This document shows positions 1-13,854 of a stretch of 21,132 nt of DNA, piece after piece. The stretch is from IMG/VR virus record IMGVR_UViG_3300036985_007737, positions 1-21,132 of that record; one strand, 5' to 3'. This DNA comes from a virus. The notes beneath the pieces were generated by a model. That model did no database searches and was not told the origin of the DNA. It saw nothing but the letters and a program-made list of their open reading frames with translations. Each line of letters opens with the position of its first letter. Positions within the stretch are counted from its first letter, which is position 1. Position numbers and translations under genes: made by a program.

Positions 1-625
1 TGTTGTTCAAGGTAATATCTACTACAATTTTACAAGCGGCTATATGACATTTGGCACTGCCGCTTCTGGCAATACTCAAACCGAACGTGCGCGTATCACT
101 TCTGGCGGCACACTTTGCCTTAACACGACGAATCCGACAGTCGACAGCAAAACCCCGTTGCTGCTGTCTTATCAGACGGGCAGCAGCCCTGCGATTTCTT
201 GTTACGTCAACAGTACCAGCTCAGCCAACCAGATCACGTTCCATAACCCAAATGGTGAAGTCGGGCAGATCAACACGGGCGGTACGACAACTTCCTACAA
301 CACCAGCTCAGACTATCGCCTTAAAGAGAACGTCGTACCGCTGATAGGAGCCGCTGCCCGAGTGCAAGCGCTGAAGCCTTGTCGGTTTAATTGGGGCGTA
401 GAACCAGCTGGACCGAAGGTTGACGGTTTTCTCGCGCACGAAGCCGCAGAGGTCGTCCCCGAAGCGGTGAGTGGCGAGAAGGACGCAGTGAATGAGGACG
501 GCAGCATCAAACCACAGGGCATAGATCATTCTAAGTTGGTGCCGTTGCTTACCGCCGCACTCCAAGAAGCCCTGACTAAGATTACGGCCTTAGAAGCCCG
601 CCTAACCGCATTGGAGGCAAAGTAA
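1..625 (+). CDS. Tail fibre/spike C-terminal part with S74 chaperone domain (5' truncated)
   Basis: The reading frame is open from base 2, so the gene begins upstream of the window; the first in-frame ATG at 44 is probably internal. The visible N-terminal half is Gly/Ser/Thr/Asn-rich and beta-prone, as in fibre shafts. At base 308 begins the S74 (endosialidase-type intramolecular chaperone) signature SDYRLKENV, followed by FNW, then GFLAHEAAEVVPEAV and a short coiled coil (ITALEARLTALEAK). In this family the C-terminal domain trimerises, helps fold the fibre and cleaves itself off at the Ser of the SD motif using a Ser-Lys pair; here Ser is at 308-310 and Lys five residues on. The stop overlaps the start of the next gene (TAATG). 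The fibre role is well supported; the receptor is unknown. Confidence 0.85.
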   Translation, partial: VVQGNIYYNFTSGYMTFGTAASGNTQTERARITSGGTLCLNTTNPTVDSKTPLLLSYQTGSSPAISCYVNSTSSANQITFHNPNGEVGQINTGGTTTSYNTSSDYRLKENVVPLIGAAARVQALKPCRFNWGVEPAGPKVDGFLAHEAAEVVPEAVSGEKDAVNEDGSIKPQGIDHSKLVPLLTAALQEALTKITALEARLTALEAK

Positions 626-627
626 TG
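590..627. repeat. 38-bp direct repeat, copy 1 (fibre 3' end, SD, stop/start)
   Basis: This stretch is identical to 1405-1442 except for one base. It spans the last coiled-coil codons, the GGAGG that acts as Shine-Dalgarno for the next gene, and the overlapping TAATG. Confidence 0.9.
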
Positions 628-1440
628 TCAACATTAGCAGCCACGAACCTCAAGCACGCCAGCAGCGCCAGCAACAACATTGTGCTGGATAGCAGCGGCA
701 ACGTGGGGATTGGGACGAGTTCAATTGTTTCACCTGCTCGTCTTGATCTTACAAAATCCACAACAAACAACGATGTAACTACGCAACGCCAATTACGGAT
801 TGGAGGTGATACGAGTAGTACATACTCTTTATTTATTGGGTTCGGTCAGCCAGTTACAGGACAGGAGTTGGGCGGCAATATTCAATCGCTTGATAACGGC
901 GTTGGTAGCAAGCTATTGCTCAACCCATCTGGCGGCAATTTGTTGGTTGGAACGTCATCCACTTTGTTCGCTTCATCACATGCGTTTGTTAATTCTGGCT
1001 CCGCTGTTCTTGGATTGCGTAATTCAGTTTCTACCGCTGGAAAGTATTGGCAAGTTGGCCCTGATGGCTTCAATTCCTTTAAGGTTTACAATCAGAGCAG
1101 CGTCGGCATGTTTATGTCTGATGGTTCCACTTCTTGGTCGTCATCGTCGGATGAACGCCAGAAGAATATCATTGAACCAATATCTGATGCTGTCGCCAAG
1201 GTTGTATCTTTGCGGGCTGTGATCGGCTCTTACAAAGCAGACGAAGAAAATCGGCGCAGGTCTTTTCTGATTGCTCAGGATGTTGAACAGGCGCTACCGG
1301 AAGCGGTTACAACGGCCCCTGACGGGTTCTTGGGTGTGGCGTACACCGATGTTATCCCGCTTCTTGTCGCAGCCATTCAGGAGCAGCAGACGCAGATTGC
1401 GGCTTTAGAAGCCCGCCTGACCGCATTGGAGGCAAAGTAA
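625..1440 (+). CDS. Tail fibre protein with C-terminal S74 chaperone domain
   Basis: A 271-aa fibre protein. The N-terminus (ATNLKHASSASNNIVLDSSG, then NVGIGTSS) is of a kind often seen at the start of phage fibre proteins and probably docks the fibre. The middle is Ser/Gly/Asn-rich beta-shaft sequence. The S74 domain starts at Ser175 with SDERQKNIIEPI, continues through FLIAQDVEQALPEAV and VAYTDVIPLLVAAIQEQ, and ends in a coiled coil with the same last residues as the preceding fibre. Ser175 and Lys180 match the family's Ser-Lys self-cleavage pair. It starts at the ATG inside TAATG, with GGAGG just upstream. Its position directly after another S74 fibre suggests duplicated or alternative receptor-binding proteins. 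Confidence 0.85.
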   Translation: MSTLAATNLKHASSASNNIVLDSSGNVGIGTSSIVSPARLDLTKSTTNNDVTTQRQLRIGGDTSSTYSLFIGFGQPVTGQELGGNIQSLDNGVGSKLLLNPSGGNLLVGTSSTLFASSHAFVNSGSAVLGLRNSVSTAGKYWQVGPDGFNSFKVYNQSSVGMFMSDGSTSWSSSSDERQKNIIEPISDAVAKVVSLRAVIGSYKADEENRRRSFLIAQDVEQALPEAVTTAPDGFLGVAYTDVIPLLVAAIQEQQTQIAALEARLTALEAK

Positions 1441-6551: not shown

Positions 6552-7040
6552 ATGAGCGACGATATCAAGGTCAGGATTGGGACGCCGGAAGATGTCCATG
6601 ATCTTATGGAATTGGCCATGTTGGCCTGCGATGAAAATGGTTTTGTGAATCCGAACCCGGTCAAGCTTTTGAATGAAATATGGCCAGCCCTACAGCTTCA
6701 TGAGGGCATAATTGGTGTTGTCGGAAAGCCGGGGGAAAAGCCCGAAGCGGCTATTTTGTTGCGTGTTGGCCATGTTTGGTATTCAGATAACCCTGTGCTT
6801 GAGGAGCGGGCTATCTTTGTCCATCCCGAATTCCGCAGCGCAAAGGGTGGCCGTGCGGCCAAGTTGTGCCGGTTTGCCAAGGAAACGGCTGATCGGATGG
6901 ACATGCCCTTGATGATTGGAGTGTTGAGTAACGACCGTACAGCCGCTAAGATACGGATGTACGAGCGCCAATTCGGCTCTCCAACGGGGGTTTACTTCCT
7001 GTACAAGGCCCATACAGGGGTCTGGAAAGAGGCGTCATGA
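6552..7040 (+). CDS. GNAT-family N-acetyltransferase
   Basis: A 162-aa protein with GNAT layout: an opening beta strand and helix (VRIGTPEDVHDLMELAMLAC), a central sheet (AAILLRVGHVWYSDNPVLEE, RAIFVHPEFRSA), the acetyl-CoA pyrophosphate loop at about 96-101 (RSAKGGRAAKLCRFAKETAD, a form of R/Q-x-x-G-x-G/A), and a C-terminal GVLSNDRTAAKIRMYERQFG helix where GNATs contact the thiol. Phages of this type often carry a GNAT between hub and ejection genes; the target (virion or host protein, or small molecule) is unknown. RBS GAAGGA precedes ATG 6552, and the stop overlaps the next start by ATGA. Confidence 0.8.
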   Translation: MSDDIKVRIGTPEDVHDLMELAMLACDENGFVNPNPVKLLNEIWPALQLHEGIIGVVGKPGEKPEAAILLRVGHVWYSDNPVLEERAIFVHPEFRSAKGGRAAKLCRFAKETADRMDMPLMIGVLSNDRTAAKIRMYERQFGSPTGVYFLYKAHTGVWKEAS

Positions 7041-10000
7041 GCGGCGGCGGTAAGAGCAGCACAAGTACCTCATCGGTATCTATACCGCCGGAAGTTCTCG
7101 CCCGGTATAATGCGGTCAATACGCGGGCTGAAACAGTCGCTCAGACACCGTTTACGCCATACGGCGGGCAATTTGTTGCTCCTCTTACCGGCACCCAGCA
7201 AGCAGGTATTGCCAATGTCAGTCAAGCCGCTGGTATGGCTCAGCCCTATTATCAGGGCGCCAGCACTGCGTTGCTTGGCGGCGCGGCGCAGGCGCAGCCT
7301 TATTATCAAGGGGCCACGCAAAGCCTTTATGGTGGTCAGGCGGCGGCGGCGCCGTTCCAGGCTGCGGCTGCCCAGAACATTGCTGGCGCCCAGGCTGGCG
7401 CGCAGCCTTATCAGGCCTTGGCCACCGGGTATGGCTTGGCTGGTGCGCGGCAGGTAGCGCCGGGCGGCTTGAATGTCGGGGCGTATATGTCGCCCTACAC
7501 TGAAGCTGTGGCGCAGCCGACCTATCAGGCTTTGCGGCAGCAGCAGCAGCAAGAACAGCAGAAGATCATTGGGGATCAAATTCGCAGCGGCGCCTTTGGT
7601 GGTGATCGCGGCAAGATCGCCCAGGCCAATTTGGCGCAGCAGCAGAACCTTGCCACGGCCCAGGCGCTTGGGAACATCTATCAGCAGGGCTATGGGCAGG
7701 CGCTTGGCGCTGCCCAGCAGCAGCAGGGCGTGTCGTTGCAGGCTGAGCAGGCCAACCGGCAGGCGCAGCAGCAGGCGGCGCAGCAGTTCCTCGGCATTGG
7801 TCAGCAGGGCTTTGGCCAGGGCATGACGGCTGCCCAGCAGCAGGCAGCGCTGGGACAGCAGCTTTATGGCCAGGGGGCGCAGACGGCGCAGCAGGCTGCG
7901 GCTCTCGGCCAGGGCTTGTATGGCATTGGGGCTGGTGTCAGCCAGGGGCTTGCCGGGCTTGGTACTGGCGCGCAGCAGGCTGCCTTGCAGGGCGGTCAGG
8001 CGCAGCTTGCGGCTGGCACTGTCGAGCAGCAGACGCAGCAGGCGCAGAACCAAGCGCTTTACAATCAGTTTCTGCAACAGCAGGGCTATCCGTTCCAAGT
8101 GGCGCAGTTCCTGGCGAACATCGCCATGGGTACGGGTGCGCTGTCTGGTTCGACCACGACGACCACGCAGCCTTCTTCGTTCTTCTCGGATGAGCGTTTG
8201 AAGGAAGATGTGGAACCGATTGGTAAGACCTTTGATGGTCAGCAGATCGTGCGGTTTAAGTACAAGGGCGAGCCCGGCACCCGGATCGGCCTTGTGGCTC
8301 AGGATGTGGAAAAGCGGCATCCCGAGGCCGTGGGGCTGGCTGGTGGCTACAAGACTGTGGACTATGACAAGGCCACTGATGAGGCTGCTGCACGGGCTCC
8401 GCACAAGGCTTACGGCGGTGGTTTGAGCCCCTGGGAAGGTGGCTCAATGGGCGGCAGCGTGTTCCGTGAGGATGCTGGCGCTGGGTTTGCTGCCGGTGGT
8501 GCGCCGGGTGATGATATTTTAGCGCAAATCAATCAGTTGGTGAATGCGCATCAAGGCATGTATCCTTATGGGAAAACGGGGCTTTACGGCGCAAGCAGCG
8601 GTAAGTCCGGCCCATATGGTAGCAGCTTGATGCAGTCACAGCCGCGTCAATTGATGATGGCAAGCCCGCATAGGTTGCCTGAACCACAAGGCGTAAAATT
8701 TCTTGAAAATGTGGGGCGTGTTGGAAGTGCGGTAGAAACCGGGTCCAAGGGCGCAAGCTTTTTGGGGCGTCAAGCATCACTTTCTCCTGAATATCAAGCG
8801 CAGGGTCCATCACCTTCTGGCGCTCCTATTTCTGAACCCCGTACTGCTGCTGATTATCTTGATCTTGCTAGGCGCCGCGCACTTTCTTCCTCGCCCGAAC
8901 CGTCCTCCAATCTTCCTTTGCCCTCTGATCCTAATGCCGCTTATGGTTTAATGCCAGCAACAGCCGCTCATGGCGGCGCCATTCGTTCTGGCCTTGCGGC
9001 TGGCGGGTTGCCTTACAGTCAAGCTGAAGACGAATACGTCCCTGAAGATATTTCCAAGCCAATACAAACGCCAAAGCTGCAAACTGCATCTACCGGCCCG
9101 ATGAAAGATCAAGGCGCCGAAGATGCCAAAATGGCTATGGACATAGCAAAATTGGCCATGATGGCCGCCGCTTCAGATCGTCGTTTGAAGGACAACATTG
9201 AACCGATTGGCAAACTGTTTGATGGGCAAAAGGTCTATCGATACAATCTCAAGGGTGACGATGAAAAGCGTATTGGCTTGATGGCGCAGGAAGTTGAAAA
9301 GCGTTATCCTGATGCTGTTGGGCTTGCACCGCGCCATGGCTATCAGGCTGGCGGCGAACCTACAGTTCCTGAAGAATGGCGTAGCCATATCTCTGAAGCT
9401 TCGCGCCGTTTTGGTGTGCCAGAGCATATTCTGACGGCTGTGGCTCGTCAGGAAAGTCAGTTTGGTCGTGCCGCTCCCGACAATCCCATGCAAATCATTG
9501 AAAGCACAGCGCGTAATCCCGGCTTTGGGTTATCGCCAATTGCTTTGGAAGATCGTGCGCGGCCAGAAGCTTTTATTCCTTTTTCTGCCCAGTACATCGC
9601 TGCGCGTAATCCAAATGTGAATTGGGAAGATCGTCCCGCTGCGGCGCGGGCTTTGGCTGCCACATATAATGCGGGCGGCGATCCGAATTATGCCTACAAT
9701 GTCGGGCGTTATATCCCCGGCATGTCTGCTGAAGATCTTGCCGCTCTTCGGGTGAACACTCAAAATCAAGGTTTGGGTGGTGCTGAACCTCAACCCCAGT
9801 CAGGAGGATTGGGTCAAGCTCGGCCAGAGTCAGTCCCGATCCTTCAGGGGCTTGGTGCGCGACGCGAACCTGAGAAAAAAGACTTCATGCAGCGTAATCA
9901 GGATTGGATTGTACCGCTTCTCACTGGTCTTGGCACCATGGCGTCTTCACCAAGCCGTTATCTTGGCTCTGCAATTTTGCAAGGTATTGGAGGCGGTGCG

Positions 10001-11470
10001 CTTCAGTATGCTGGCATGCAGGAGCGCGGTGAAGGTCAAGCCATTCAGCGTGAGCAGGTTGATGTTTCCCGTCTGCGCGAAATTAATCAAGCGATGCAGA
10101 CGCAAGAGCAGATGCGTCAGAGGTTGCTTGAGTCGTTTGGCCCACGGCTTGAAGGCAATCAATATCTCAATCCGTATAGTGGCGAATTGGTTTCAGCACA
10201 GCAGCGTATGGCCATCGTGAATTCCATGATGTCCAACATGGCTCGGCAGATGGGTCTGCCAGCTATGACTGGGGCTGAAGCTGCTGGTGGTCTGCCGCCC
10301 GGTCAGCGCCCCGGCGAAGCACCGCAGCAGCCGCCCTCTGGCGCTCCTGCACCGCCTTCCGGCGCGGCGCCTGGGGCTGCTGGCTCATCTGGGCTTGTAA
10401 CGCCAGCCACGGGCGCTGAGCGGCCAGCGCCGCCTGATGCGTCTGTTGTTGGCGCTGGCCGCAGCCCTGATTACAGCACAGCCTTCACTGTAGATACTTC
10501 TTCTCTGCGTGGGCAAAATAACCCCGACACGCTTGAGCAAGAGGCGAATGCATTATTTAATCAGTCTCGGGTTGTTATGGGGCAAGGACTTGCATCAAAC
10601 GCTCAGCTTTATCAGGAGCAAGCCAAAGAAAAGCTTGCTCGCGCTGATGCTATTCGCAATGGCACATTGCCTGTTCGCGATGTGAATGGTCAACTTTTTC
10701 GTGGTTTTGCTCAAGCATCTCGTGACCGTACACGGTTTGAGGAAGAACAAAAGAAAGTTGAAGAAGCTTATGCGGCGCATGCAAGTGAAGGTGTTCGCGT
10801 ACAAAACACCTTAGAAGGCATGGCCAGGACGTATCAAAGCGGCGCCGAATTGGGCGCCGCTTCCAATCCTTTAGCTATGGCGGCAGGTCTCGTTCAAACC
10901 GCCCTTGGGCCGCAAAATACGCCAGAGGCGATGAACCGCTTCCTGCAAGCCGTTCAAACGTCAAACAAAGAAGCCATCATGTTGGCGTTTAATAACCTTC
11001 GGAACACTGGCATGAGCCGTGGTACCAACATGGCGTTGCAGGAAATGTTGGCTATGGTTCCAGGGCCTGAAATGACCTCTTCTGCAAGATATAGTATTTT
11101 GACCAGAGCTATGGGTGAAATAGCCAGGGATAATGCTTTCTATGAAGCGGCTATGCAGCGTGATCCGCGTGAATCAATTGGTGCTTTCCAGGCGCGTTGG
11201 AATTCACAACCTGAGAATTCACTTGATCGTTTCACACAAAACGTCAGAAGCAGGACTGTTGGCTTTACCGGCATGACACCAAATGATGTTCGCCAGCTTG
11301 GCGCAGCATCTGCCGCCGTTCCACCAAACCTACAAGGCAGGCAGGGCTTGGAATATGATCGTACCACGGGAATATTCAGGGCTCCGTCAGGACAAGATGC
11401 TGAAGGGCGCCCGGTTTTTGAATACTTCAATATTGCTGGTCGGCCATCGCAAGCACCAGGGAGGCCATAA
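7037..11470 (+). CDS. Giant ejection-type virion protein with two S74-like modules and a lytic transglycosylase domain
   Basis: A 1477-aa multidomain protein. Residues 1-370 are Gln/Ala/Gly-rich, starting with about four 18-20-aa repeats around AQPYYQGA. A first S74-like module starts at Ser384 (SDERLKEDVEPIG, RIGLVAQDVEKRHPEAVG, YKTVDYDKAT). Residues 460-700 are a low-complexity linker with GG motifs. A second, shorter S74-like module starts at Ser713 (SDRRLKDNIEPIG, RIGLMAQEVEKRYPDAVG). Residues 774-895 resemble a soluble lytic transglycosylase: catalytic Glu806 in AVARQESQFG, NPMQI, ALAATYNAGGDPNYAYNVGR. Residues 1100-1477 are mostly helical, like DNA-transfer proteins. It would cut peptidoglycan locally during genome entry. 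It starts by ATGA overlap and ends TAATG into the second ejection gene. Confidence 0.75.
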   Translation: MSGGGKSSTSTSSVSIPPEVLARYNAVNTRAETVAQTPFTPYGGQFVAPLTGTQQAGIANVSQAAGMAQPYYQGASTALLGGAAQAQPYYQGATQSLYGGQAAAAPFQAAAAQNIAGAQAGAQPYQALATGYGLAGARQVAPGGLNVGAYMSPYTEAVAQPTYQALRQQQQQEQQKIIGDQIRSGAFGGDRGKIAQANLAQQQNLATAQALGNIYQQGYGQALGAAQQQQGVSLQAEQANRQAQQQAAQQFLGIGQQGFGQGMTAAQQQAALGQQLYGQGAQTAQQAAALGQGLYGIGAGVSQGLAGLGTGAQQAALQGGQAQLAAGTVEQQTQQAQNQALYNQFLQQQGYPFQVAQFLANIAMGTGALSGSTTTTTQPSSFFSDERLKEDVEPIGKTFDGQQIVRFKYKGEPGTRIGLVAQDVEKRHPEAVGLAGGYKTVDYDKATDEAAARAPHKAYGGGLSPWEGGSMGGSVFREDAGAGFAAGGAPGDDILAQINQLVNAHQGMYPYGKTGLYGASSGKSGPYGSSLMQSQPRQLMMASPHRLPEPQGVKFLENVGRVGSAVETGSKGASFLGRQASLSPEYQAQGPSPSGAPISEPRTAADYLDLARRRALSSSPEPSSNLPLPSDPNAAYGLMPATAAHGGAIRSGLAAGGLPYSQAEDEYVPEDISKPIQTPKLQTASTGPMKDQGAEDAKMAMDIAKLAMMAAASDRRLKDNIEPIGKLFDGQKVYRYNLKGDDEKRIGLMAQEVEKRYPDAVGLAPRHGYQAGGEPTVPEEWRSHISEASRRFGVPEHILTAVARQESQFGRAAPDNPMQIIESTARNPGFGLSPIALEDRARPEAFIPFSAQYIAARNPNVNWEDRPAAARALAATYNAGGDPNYAYNVGRYIPGMSAEDLAALRVNTQNQGLGGAEPQPQSGGLGQARPESVPILQGLGARREPEKKDFMQRNQDWIVPLLTGLGTMASSPSRYLGSAILQGIGGGALQYAGMQERGEGQAIQREQVDVSRLREINQAMQTQEQMRQRLLESFGPRLEGNQYLNPYSGELVSAQQRMAIVNSMMSNMARQMGLPAMTGAEAAGGLPPGQRPGEAPQQPPSGAPAPPSGAAPGAAGSSGLVTPATGAERPAPPDASVVGAGRSPDYSTAFTVDTSSLRGQNNPDTLEQEANALFNQSRVVMGQGLASNAQLYQEQAKEKLARADAIRNGTLPVRDVNGQLFRGFAQASRDRTRFEEEQKKVEEAYAAHASEGVRVQNTLEGMARTYQSGAELGAASNPLAMAAGLVQTALGPQNTPEAMNRFLQAVQTSNKEAIMLAFNNLRNTGMSRGTNMALQEMLAMVPGPEMTSSARYSILTRAMGEIARDNAFYEAAMQRDPRESIGAFQARWNSQPENSLDRFTQNVRSRTVGFTGMTPNDVRQLGAASAAVPPNLQGRQGLEYDRTTGIFRAPSGQDAEGRPVFEYFNIAGRPSQAPGRP

Positions 11471-13854
11471 TGGCTTTTGAACCTGTTCCGGAAGGTGGTG
11501 TTTTTCGCTATGGAACACCTCTGCGCCCTATGGAAGAGGGGCAAACATTTGCCCCTGCTCGCCCGCAGCTTGAGGTTCCTGCGCCGCAAGCTGAGCGCCC
11601 AGCAGTAACACCATCAACGCGTCCATCTTCACAGCCGCGCCCGGTTAGCGAGCCTGACCTATTTTCCACGGCTACGCTTGCTGATGTTGCCCGATCCCAA
11701 TTGGCTGGCACACAGCGCGGGTTAGTGGGGCTTCTGGGGCTTCCTGGTGACATTGGGCAGCTTACCGATGTCGCTGGGCCTATGGTGCGCTATTACGGCA
11801 GCCGGGCGCTGGGAACCTCTTCTGAGGAAGCGCAGCAGGTCTATGATCGTGCCATGGAAGCCCTGCGTCAGCGTCAGACACCGGAAGAACAGGCTGGGCG
11901 GCGGGGGCGCTTGCTTGGTATCAATTTTCCGACCAGCGCTTCAGTAATTGAAGGCGCATCTTTCATCCCCGGCATTACATATGAACCGAAAACGCGCGCT
12001 GGGCGCATAGCTCACACAGTTGGCGAATTCATGGGTAGCGCGCCCTTGGCTGAAGTGGCTGCTCCTATTCAAGCCGCGCGTGGTTTGACGACTGCTGGCC
12101 AAGCTGCTGCCCGTGTCGGGCGATCTGCCATTTCACCAGCTTCTGTTGTTGGGGGCTTGGGTAGCGGCGCTGCCGGTGAAATGATGTATGGTGAAGAGGG
12201 TGAAACTGGCGCACGTTTGGCTGGTGGCCTTGCTGGTACTGTTGCTGGTGGTAGCCTTGGCAGTATGGCTGCCCGTGGCGCTCGGGCGGTTGCTGGCTCT
12301 CCCGAAGCAGCGGCATTGGAGGCAGCGCGTCGCGGGCTTGGACAGAAAGGGCTGTCGCTTGATGAGGCAGCCCGGCTTGCTGAAGCTGGGCATGATGTTC
12401 GTCTGACCGATGTTGCTGGCATGAAGGCGCCGACACAGCGCGCTTTGGGGCGGCAAGTTGAATCAGAAGCCGCGCAAGATGTTGTTTCTGGATTGGCACA
12501 GCGAGCTTCTGTCAGTCGCGATAATGTGACCAATCAGATTGATAATATTTATGGATCGCGGATTGATCCGTTTGTGACTGCGCAAAATGCCTCTCAGGAA
12601 GCGCGCAAGATATTGGCGCCAGAATATGATCGTGTGTTTTCTTTACCTGCTGCGCAATCAATTTGGTCGCCTGAATTGGCTAACCTTACAAATACTGCGG
12701 CGGGTCGAAACGCTCTAACCACAGCTTTTGATAATCTGACCCATCTTAAAGGGACGCCTGTAAGCCTTGATCAATATTTGGCCAGGGATGCTGCTGGTAA
12801 CCTTGCTTTGCGTCCAGGCGCAACAGGTCTTCCTTTGGAAGTATGGGATCAGGTTAAGAAAAACCTGGATGCCCAAGTCAATAATTTATACAATTCGCCT
12901 ATCGCTCGTGATGCTGCTGCCGGTGCTGCTTTGAAGGCAGAGCGTGATCGCATGAAAGGCGTTTTGGATAATGCGGTTGGCGAATATGGTAAGCTTCGCG
13001 CTGAAGCACAGCGTTATATTTTGGGGAATAATGCGTTTGAAGCTGGCCAAAATCTTGTACAGCTTCTTTCTGGGCGTTCGCCAAAGGCGGCTCGTCAACT
13101 TTCAGAATTCAATTCAAAGGTTCCAAATTTTACAAAAAATGAACGCTCATTTTTAAGCCAAGGTGTTGCATCAAATATCAGCACACAGCCTAATGTGGCG
13201 GCGCGTATCTTTATGGCAAATGATGCCAGGGCTATGCGGGCGCTTGAAAATGCCCTTGGCCCCGAAGAATTCAATAAAATCCGTGATGTCATGACTGTTC
13301 ATGATCTCGCGATAAATATGCAGAAAATAACGCCTGTGCTTGCACGAGAAATGCCGAATTGGGGTGGTGCGCCGGTAGGCTATGTTCTCATGAACCTTGT
13401 TCAGCCTGGAATGTCGCTAGGTCATGCGGCGGCATCTGCGGTTGGATATGGTGCTGTGGCGGCCAGGAATGCGATCAAAGACCGTAATGCTGGGCGGCTT
13501 TTGGAATTAATCAACAGTAACGATCCAGCAGTATTGCGTCAGCTTGCTGAAGAAGCTTCGCGTAATCCAGAGCTTTCGCGCACCCTGGCAGGACTTGGGG
13601 CGACGATGCGGGCTGCTTATGCCACATATGGTCTTGAAGGCGGTCAGCAGCCAGCCCAGCGCTTTGCCGGTGGCCGCGTAGGCCGGGCATCAGGTGGCAG
13701 GCTGGTGCGCACTGATCATGCTGCCAGGGCTGCTTCGCTGATCAGGGCTGCGGAAGCCGCCAAGAAGGCGCATAATAGGACCACTGAGGATATCCTTGAG
13801 CAGCCGGATGAGGCTGTTGCCAAGGCGCTTTCCATCGCAAACAAAGCCATCTGA
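11470..13854 (+). CDS. Second ejection/DNA-transfer-type internal virion protein
   Basis: A 794-aa protein, unrecognised at family level. A Pro-rich N-terminus (residues 1-70) is followed by Ala/Gly-rich helical sequence with glycine-zipper-like stretches at about 220-270 (VVGGLGSGAAGEMMYG, LAGGLAGTVAGGSLGSMAAR) that could insert in membranes. A long helical body (300-640) and another weakly hydrophobic Ala/Gly segment (about 640-670) follow. It ends with a GGRVGRASGGRLVRTDHAAR linker and the motif AAEAAKKAHNRTTEDILEQP plus VAKALSIANKAI. A C-terminal LIRxxExAKKxxxxxTExxLxxxDxxVAKAL motif recurs at the ends of podophage internal proteins. Together with its position after the transglycosylase protein this suggests a P22 gp16/gp20-type role. 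Start overlaps the previous stop by 1 nt. Confidence 0.6.
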   Translation: MAFEPVPEGGVFRYGTPLRPMEEGQTFAPARPQLEVPAPQAERPAVTPSTRPSSQPRPVSEPDLFSTATLADVARSQLAGTQRGLVGLLGLPGDIGQLTDVAGPMVRYYGSRALGTSSEEAQQVYDRAMEALRQRQTPEEQAGRRGRLLGINFPTSASVIEGASFIPGITYEPKTRAGRIAHTVGEFMGSAPLAEVAAPIQAARGLTTAGQAAARVGRSAISPASVVGGLGSGAAGEMMYGEEGETGARLAGGLAGTVAGGSLGSMAARGARAVAGSPEAAALEAARRGLGQKGLSLDEAARLAEAGHDVRLTDVAGMKAPTQRALGRQVESEAAQDVVSGLAQRASVSRDNVTNQIDNIYGSRIDPFVTAQNASQEARKILAPEYDRVFSLPAAQSIWSPELANLTNTAAGRNALTTAFDNLTHLKGTPVSLDQYLARDAAGNLALRPGATGLPLEVWDQVKKNLDAQVNNLYNSPIARDAAAGAALKAERDRMKGVLDNAVGEYGKLRAEAQRYILGNNAFEAGQNLVQLLSGRSPKAARQLSEFNSKVPNFTKNERSFLSQGVASNISTQPNVAARIFMANDARAMRALENALGPEEFNKIRDVMTVHDLAINMQKITPVLAREMPNWGGAPVGYVLMNLVQPGMSLGHAAASAVGYGAVAARNAIKDRNAGRLLELINSNDPAVLRQLAEEASRNPELSRTLAGLGATMRAAYATYGLEGGQQPAQRFAGGRVGRASGGRLVRTDHAARAASLIRAAEAAKKAHNRTTEDILEQPDEAVAKALSIANKAI

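Follow-up and report, generated by a model that had tools for sequence, protein, structure and literature searches.

Locus and parts of the fused protein

The window, by which we mean the whole stretch of DNA that was analyzed, is a virus record 21,132 bases long. Its genes follow a P22-like arrangement (adaptor, gp10-like, (acetyltransferase), A, B, C), represented by SU10_adaptor, phrog_3287, acetyltransferase, the ORF at 7037-11470 and an ORF of 794 amino acids. A similar order is found in L001, in most of L162-L171 and in P22. Our subject is the ORF at 7037..11470 (+ strand), which is open and intact, encodes 1477 amino acids and, read against the gene order of P22-like podophages, is almost certainly a fused ejection protein made up of A, a linker and B. 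Its ends overlap the neighboring genes, by 4 bases on the upstream side and by 1 base on the downstream side. The gene directly upstream (6552..7040, +) is acetyltransferase-like (phrog_1249, acetyltransferase) and occupies the position of P22 gene 14, as it does in relatives; further upstream, a 185-amino-acid ORF at 5991-6548 matches phrog_2423 (52 positions) only over its first 43 residues. Downstream lies the long protein C (11470..13854, +; 794 amino acids), which is assigned to the gp16 position from its place alone and matched no family in Pfam or PHROG. At the C-terminus of protein C, a Gly-rich stretch (RFAGGRVGRASGGRLV) precedes a helical tail (RTTEDILEQPDEAVAKALSIANKAI), and together they resemble the GG-rich patches of the neighboring ejection protein. 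The window also encodes two adjacent fiber-type S74 proteins with a complete C-terminal coil (44..1440, +; genes 44-625 and 625-1440), both of which match PF13884 and fall on a separate branch of the module tree described below; their coil tails are nearly identical (ITALEARLTALEAK and IAALEARLTALEAK).

The 1477-residue protein can be divided as follows. The Gln-rich A part (residues 1-383; 7037..8185, +), delimited with a profile of 15 relatives, closes with a Thr-rich cable (GTGALSGSTTTTTQPSSFF) and stands at the gp7 position, the same position as separately encoded A proteins that match PHROG families named DNA ejection protein. The whole ORF matches phrog_4287 (DNA ejection protein) over residues 276-446, largely through module 1, and in PHROG neither the A part without its module nor B alone gave a match. 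Module 1, a coil-less S74 module (residues 384-450; 8186..8386, +; PF13884, HMM 129 bits, nearest modeled fold the MYRF ICA domain 7dc3), begins with Ser384 (codon 8186..8188, +), which aligns with MYRF S587 and is the predicted nucleophile for a predicted cut between Phe383 and Ser384; Lys389 (codon 8201..8203, +), a Lys in 193/193 modules, is predicted to act as general base in the Ser-Lys dyad. The linker that follows (residues 451-712; 8387..9172, +) is rich in Gly, Ser and Pro, looks disordered, diverges fast (38-60% identity in the closest clade) and closes with a hydrophobic helix (MDIAKLAMMAAA). Module 2 (residues 713-770; 9173..9346, +), delimited from Pfam, from an alignment with complete second modules and from the empty site in relatives, is without the last strand and the short helix. 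The two dyads, S384/K389 and S713/K718, share a +5 spacing.

B contains an SLT transglycosylase domain (residues 785-882; 9389..9682, +; PF01464, 25.5 bits, cut-off 21.3) whose catalytic Glu is predicted to be Glu806 (codon 9452-9454, +), in an ES motif that is kept in L011, L013, L019 and L031. A wall-cutting transglycosylase is likewise borne by an ejection protein in the T7 gp16/gp15 set (PMC8954989). In B, the hydrolase is joined to a helical ejection part; the rest of B (residues 930-1477; 9824..11467, +) is swapped relative to near kin, with 23-29% identity, and matched no PHROG family. A preliminary description of this DNA had proposed an ejection-type protein with two internal S74 modules starting at Ser384 and Ser713, an intact Ser-Lys signature in each (Lys389 and Lys718) and a transglycosylase with Glu806. 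All of this is borne out by the P22-like gene order and the gp7 position of A, by PF13884 matching twice above its curated cut-off of 22 (E 3.9e-21, 75.5 bits; the best stretch is 713-761, from model position 1), by the residues themselves, Glu806 among them, and by the PF01464 match.

Structure prediction for module 1 points the same way. Two single-chain AlphaFold2 models reached a modest mean pLDDT of 57 and 68, and the Ser/Asp/Lys segment is not a clear helix in them. The best PDB match of the longer model, itself of modest pLDDT, is the MYRF ICA domain 7dc3 (Foldseek E 0.045). The 83-residue model returned no S74 entry among its top 50 PDB matches in Foldseek, but in structural alignment the module core superimposes on 7dc3 at 2.4 Å over 59 residues with a VIA Z of 3.9, less than 1 above the next match. 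In BFVD, 20 matches had E ≤ 0.001 (best 8e-11), many of them named ICA or endosialidase-chaperone. A profile search of the PDB named three solved S74 domains weakly (E 0.019-0.091), those of MYRF, a long tail fiber and a GA-1-type neck appendage. Its top rows, recA concatemers and ThreeFoil, were set aside as repeat artifacts in which no single stretch is significant, and a single-sequence PDB search gave low-complexity matches only. Taken together, these comparisons favor membership of the S74 family without deciding it.

Split and fused relatives

The nature of the fusion becomes apparent in phages in which A is a gene of its own. In about a dozen split-gene phages, cultured or environmental, the module ends 1-17 amino acids before the stop of A, B follows, and the A proteins are 270-470 amino acids long, with other ejection genes coming next. 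They include Bradyrhizobium phage ppBeUSDA76-2, EBPR podovirus 2, Rhizobium phages RHph_N2 and RHph_Y1_10, Sinorhizobium phage phiM5, Pseudomonas phages PAE2 and AH02, Sulfitobacter phage pCB2047-C, Vibrio phage 199E37-1, Ochrobactrum phage OH, Microcystis phage Mae-JY35 and one environmental phage. These A proteins match PHROGs named DNA ejection protein or virion structural protein, and those of PAE2, AH02 and 199E37-1 match phrog_598, the family of P22 gp7. P22 gp7 stops at ...GLLGSLF, where its relatives read ...VGLLSMF|SDIRLK, so that they continue with SDxRxK from the very point at which gp7 ends. Relatives of the Bradyrhizobium A protein with 57-76% identity have the same stop point and no module. 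The S74 domain is presumably the reason why, in public records, several split A proteins (for example, ARV77528, WAX24423 and QIG66096) carry the label tailspike or tail fiber. The S74-bearing A protein of phiM5 is annotated as detected in particles.

Because module 1 ends separate A proteins in relatives and gp7 stops at the point that corresponds to the start of the module, the window's protein is almost certainly A, in the gp7 position and ending with module 1, fused to B. As judged from these alignments, module 1 once closed a gp7-like ejection protein at its C-terminus and became internal through gene fusion. The preliminary description was right that the modules are real and internal, and the two alternatives it offered, cleavage or an assembly role, are sensible ones. 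The modules are not two odd insertions, since module 1 is the former C-terminus of A. Nor is the arrangement a peculiarity of one protein; it is a widespread trait of a family.

The extent of this family was assessed in two scans. In the first, module 1 lay inside a long ORF in nearly all of 79 loci; the second used the N-terminal part only, so that there was no selection for the module, and its loci were classified together with all others. One module is present in 75, two in 35 and none in 4 of the 114 complete fused ORFs, a count in which overlapping loci enter more than once and which does not represent independent genomes. Module 1 is thus found in all but a few relatives, far beyond chance. 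Contigs of bacterial genomes contain both forms, the split form mostly in Alphaproteobacteria. With the A protein of L003 as the query, one near-copy was the only find. A deposited protein of similar length, A0A6J5LD05 (1487 amino acids, uncultured Caudovirales, "ICA domain containing protein"), is 69% identical over the module and, by sequence, is a member of the same family; its annotation names the domain alone, and we found no study of it in open-licence papers. The fused layout is thus common to a large and apparently undescribed phage family.

Both module sites are optional among relatives. Fused proteins without module 1 remain one chain (L287/L289, L288, L315/L318), and comparison of L287 with L080 shows the module cleanly absent after GALSGSTTTTTTP. 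Likewise, module 2 is absent between the hydrophobic helix and a GG..RHGY motif in L018/L297 relative to L015. In many fused ejection proteins, the linker has at its end, ahead of B, the short motif GG(G)xxxR[HKR]GYxxxG (8387-9172 in the window, and relatives), which occurs in 32 distinct contexts without module 2 and in 11 after module 2. Following module 2, near kin have swapped what comes next (9350-9700 in the window): the window, L011, L013 and L019 have SLT, L006 has a different wall-cutting domain (glycosyl hydrolase 108, GH108), and L004/L005 have a region without assignment. In L270 and L271 (ORF 6998-11053, residues 545-580), a half-length second module keeps SDRRAK and stops past the first strands; from its sequence, it appears to be a decaying copy.

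A conserved S74 class without the coil

S74 domains are understood as trimerizing, self-removing chaperones of fibers. The modules described here sit inside a Gln-rich ejection protein and not at the end of a beta-structured fiber or spike, and both lack the coiled coil in which a complete fiber-type S74 ends. The coil motif occurs in 74/82 fiber-type modules, in 2/70 C-terminal modules and in 1/99 internal modules; the two C-terminal exceptions, on Thioploca and Parabeggiatoa contigs, look fiber-type. Sequence comparison thus defines the ejection-type modules as a coil-less S74 class that is without the trimeric coiled coil of the fiber type. Since they have no trimerization coil, trimerization is not implied by the S74 name, and the earlier label of trimerization module does not carry over to this short class.

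In a tree of the modules, which rests on about 70 columns and has long fiber branches, the ejection-type modules are separate from the window's own fiber-type S74 with support 100/99, which argues for an old lineage rather than recent fiber debris. An origin from the window's own fiber genes was rejected on this separation, read with the same limits of some 70 columns and long fiber branches. Second modules arose more than once in this tree; those of L020/L263 group with the first module of their own proteins.

Conservation within the class is strong. Without exception, distinct ejection-type modules (193/193, whether internal or C-terminal) and fiber-type modules (87/87) carry the Ser, Asp and Lys of the signature. 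Across the 193 modules, the Ser is never Thr, Asp or Asn, changes that a simple helix cap would tolerate, and the Lys is never Arg, whereas other Lys columns switch to Arg 23 and 15 times. Because the Asp is as invariant as the Ser and Lys, invariance by itself is no proof of catalysis. Identity in the closest clade is 80-100% for both modules but only 38-60% (about 55%) for the linker between them. Among pairs close enough to be measured in this clade, dN/dS is 0.05-0.18 for module 1 (0.03 for L012) and 0.02-0.09 for module 2, values that indicate strong purifying selection on both. Module 2 is nonetheless shorter than module 1, the "GGYKTVDYxxATxxAA" end being absent in the window's clade, and the activity of module 2 is doubtful because this last strand is missing.

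Proposed cleavage, its alternatives and known systems

Our preferred reading, self-cleavage of module 1 before Ser384 with release of A, is about an even bet. A broader reading, to which we assign a probability of roughly 0.4, is that a widespread and undescribed class of coil-less S74 modules cuts phage ejection proteins during assembly without the trimeric coil regarded as necessary and that, in fused members such as the window's, the cut would turn one packaged polyprotein into separate parts of the trans-envelope conduit. Internal S74 domains do cleave in animal MYRF (PMC8326128, PMC3742443), in which S587A and K592A, both aligned with the module dyad, abolish cleavage (PMC8326128). The argument for cleavage combines the invariant dyad, what this dyad is known to do in MYRF and endosialidase, and the predicted new C-terminus, which matches the stops of gp7 and of module-less relatives. 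The coincidence of the gp7 stop with the cut site is consistent with cleavage, although it would also be expected if the module had been appended by recombination.

According to this proposal, A would fold and assemble first, and module 1 would then cut before Ser384 via its Ser-Lys dyad, so that A gained a free C-terminus like that of P22 gp7 or of the module-less relatives. As in MYRF, the module would stay on the N-terminus of the remaining chain. The benefit of fusion would be 1:1 co-packaging, and that of cleavage the freeing of the parts for ejection. A cut at Ser713 could free the hydrolase part likewise, although this is less likely given that module 2 is truncated. Release in three pieces, which the preliminary description expected if the modules cleave, is accordingly rated below release in two, the last strand of module 2 being absent from the clade, and is unlikely to be universal. 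Nor can separation of A from B be required everywhere, since fused relatives without module 1 stay one chain.

The main rival, close in weight to cleavage and likewise tentative, is that the modules do not cut at all and are assembly or docking domains whose signature is kept for structure, making oligomer contacts through collar helices or acting as a packing tag to the portal or to each other. The missing coiled coil speaks for a non-cutting role and against cleavage: MYRF cleaves poorly without coiled-coil trimerization (L683A, PMC3742443; PMC8326128). The invariant Asp, which is constrained as tightly as the Ser and Lys, the fused relatives that lack the module and need no cut, and the conservation of module 2 in its clade despite the loss of its last strand fit this alternative as well. 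However, a structural role leaves unexplained why none of 193 modules has Thr, Asp or Asn in place of the Ser, or Arg in place of the Lys, and where close relatives of split A proteins have no such tag, the finished particle does without it. We found no virion proteomics in the paper on Ochrobactrum phage OH.

It is improbable that the modules are shuffling remnants from tail-fiber genes, left as passive junctions by mosaic gene fusion. Both sites can be present or absent, the second module was gained several times, enzyme domains are swapped after it, and the half-length copy in L270/L271 shows that decay occurs; a passive remnant would, however, be hard to reconcile with dN/dS of 0.02-0.18, with the invariant dyad and with the position of the modules apart from the window's fiber-type S74 (100/99 in the tree of about 70 columns). 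Least probable is that A and B are made separately from internal translation starts, making a cut unnecessary: we found no support for this, the sole candidate among residues 300-900 being a GTG at residue 392 with a weak AGGA upstream, and neither junction has an in-frame start nearby that is preceded by a good ribosome-binding site.

S74 domains, their internal occurrence (MYRF), ejection proteins that cut the cell wall and gene fusions have each been described, whereas we found no account, in open-licence papers, of their combination, an S74 lineage that is coil-less and peculiar to ejection proteins. Because this large lineage lacks the trimer coil and yet keeps a fully invariant dyad, either S74 cleavage needs no coil or SD..K has an unrecognized structural role. 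If the modules do cut, podophages would co-package ejection proteins at a fixed ratio and then free them. The annotation of several such genes, labeled tail fiber or tailspike on account of their S74 domain, is corrected in either case.

Among known systems, endosialidase-type chaperones (PF13884; PDB 3gw6, 3gud, 6f45) and the window's own fiber genes share the Pfam family, the dyad and, by prediction, the core strands with the ejection-type modules, but the fiber types have a coiled coil at the end and a beta-structured shaft before it, and the ejection-type modules have neither. The MYRF ICA domain (7dc3) is, like module 1, an internal S74-type domain with a Ser-Lys dyad at the same spacing, and its cut leaves the ICA domain on the C-terminal part; MYRF differs in being a eukaryotic transcription factor that has a beta-helical stalk and, at its C-terminus, a trimeric coiled coil. 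In T7, the transglycosylase sits on gp16, which is not known to have an S74 domain, whereas in the window it belongs to a part at the gp20/gp15 position that is fused to A. P22 gp7 (phrog_598) has the same gene position and is homologous to the module-bearing A proteins of PAE2, AH02 and 199E37-1, but it has no S74 domain and stops where the module would begin; it is proteolytically processed too, a precedent for processing of such proteins, although at the N-terminus, where according to its annotation a host protease takes 20 residues. The closest counterparts are the split, S74-tagged A proteins of ppBeUSDA76-2, EBPR podovirus 2, phiM5, pCB2047-C, PAE2/AH02 and 199E37-1 (PHROG 4287, 6121 and 598), which have the same coil-less module with its invariant SD..K and are encoded at the same place, ahead of B and C and in several cases right after the acetyltransferase. 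In these phages the module is the end of the protein, whereas in the window A runs through the linker and module 2 into B.
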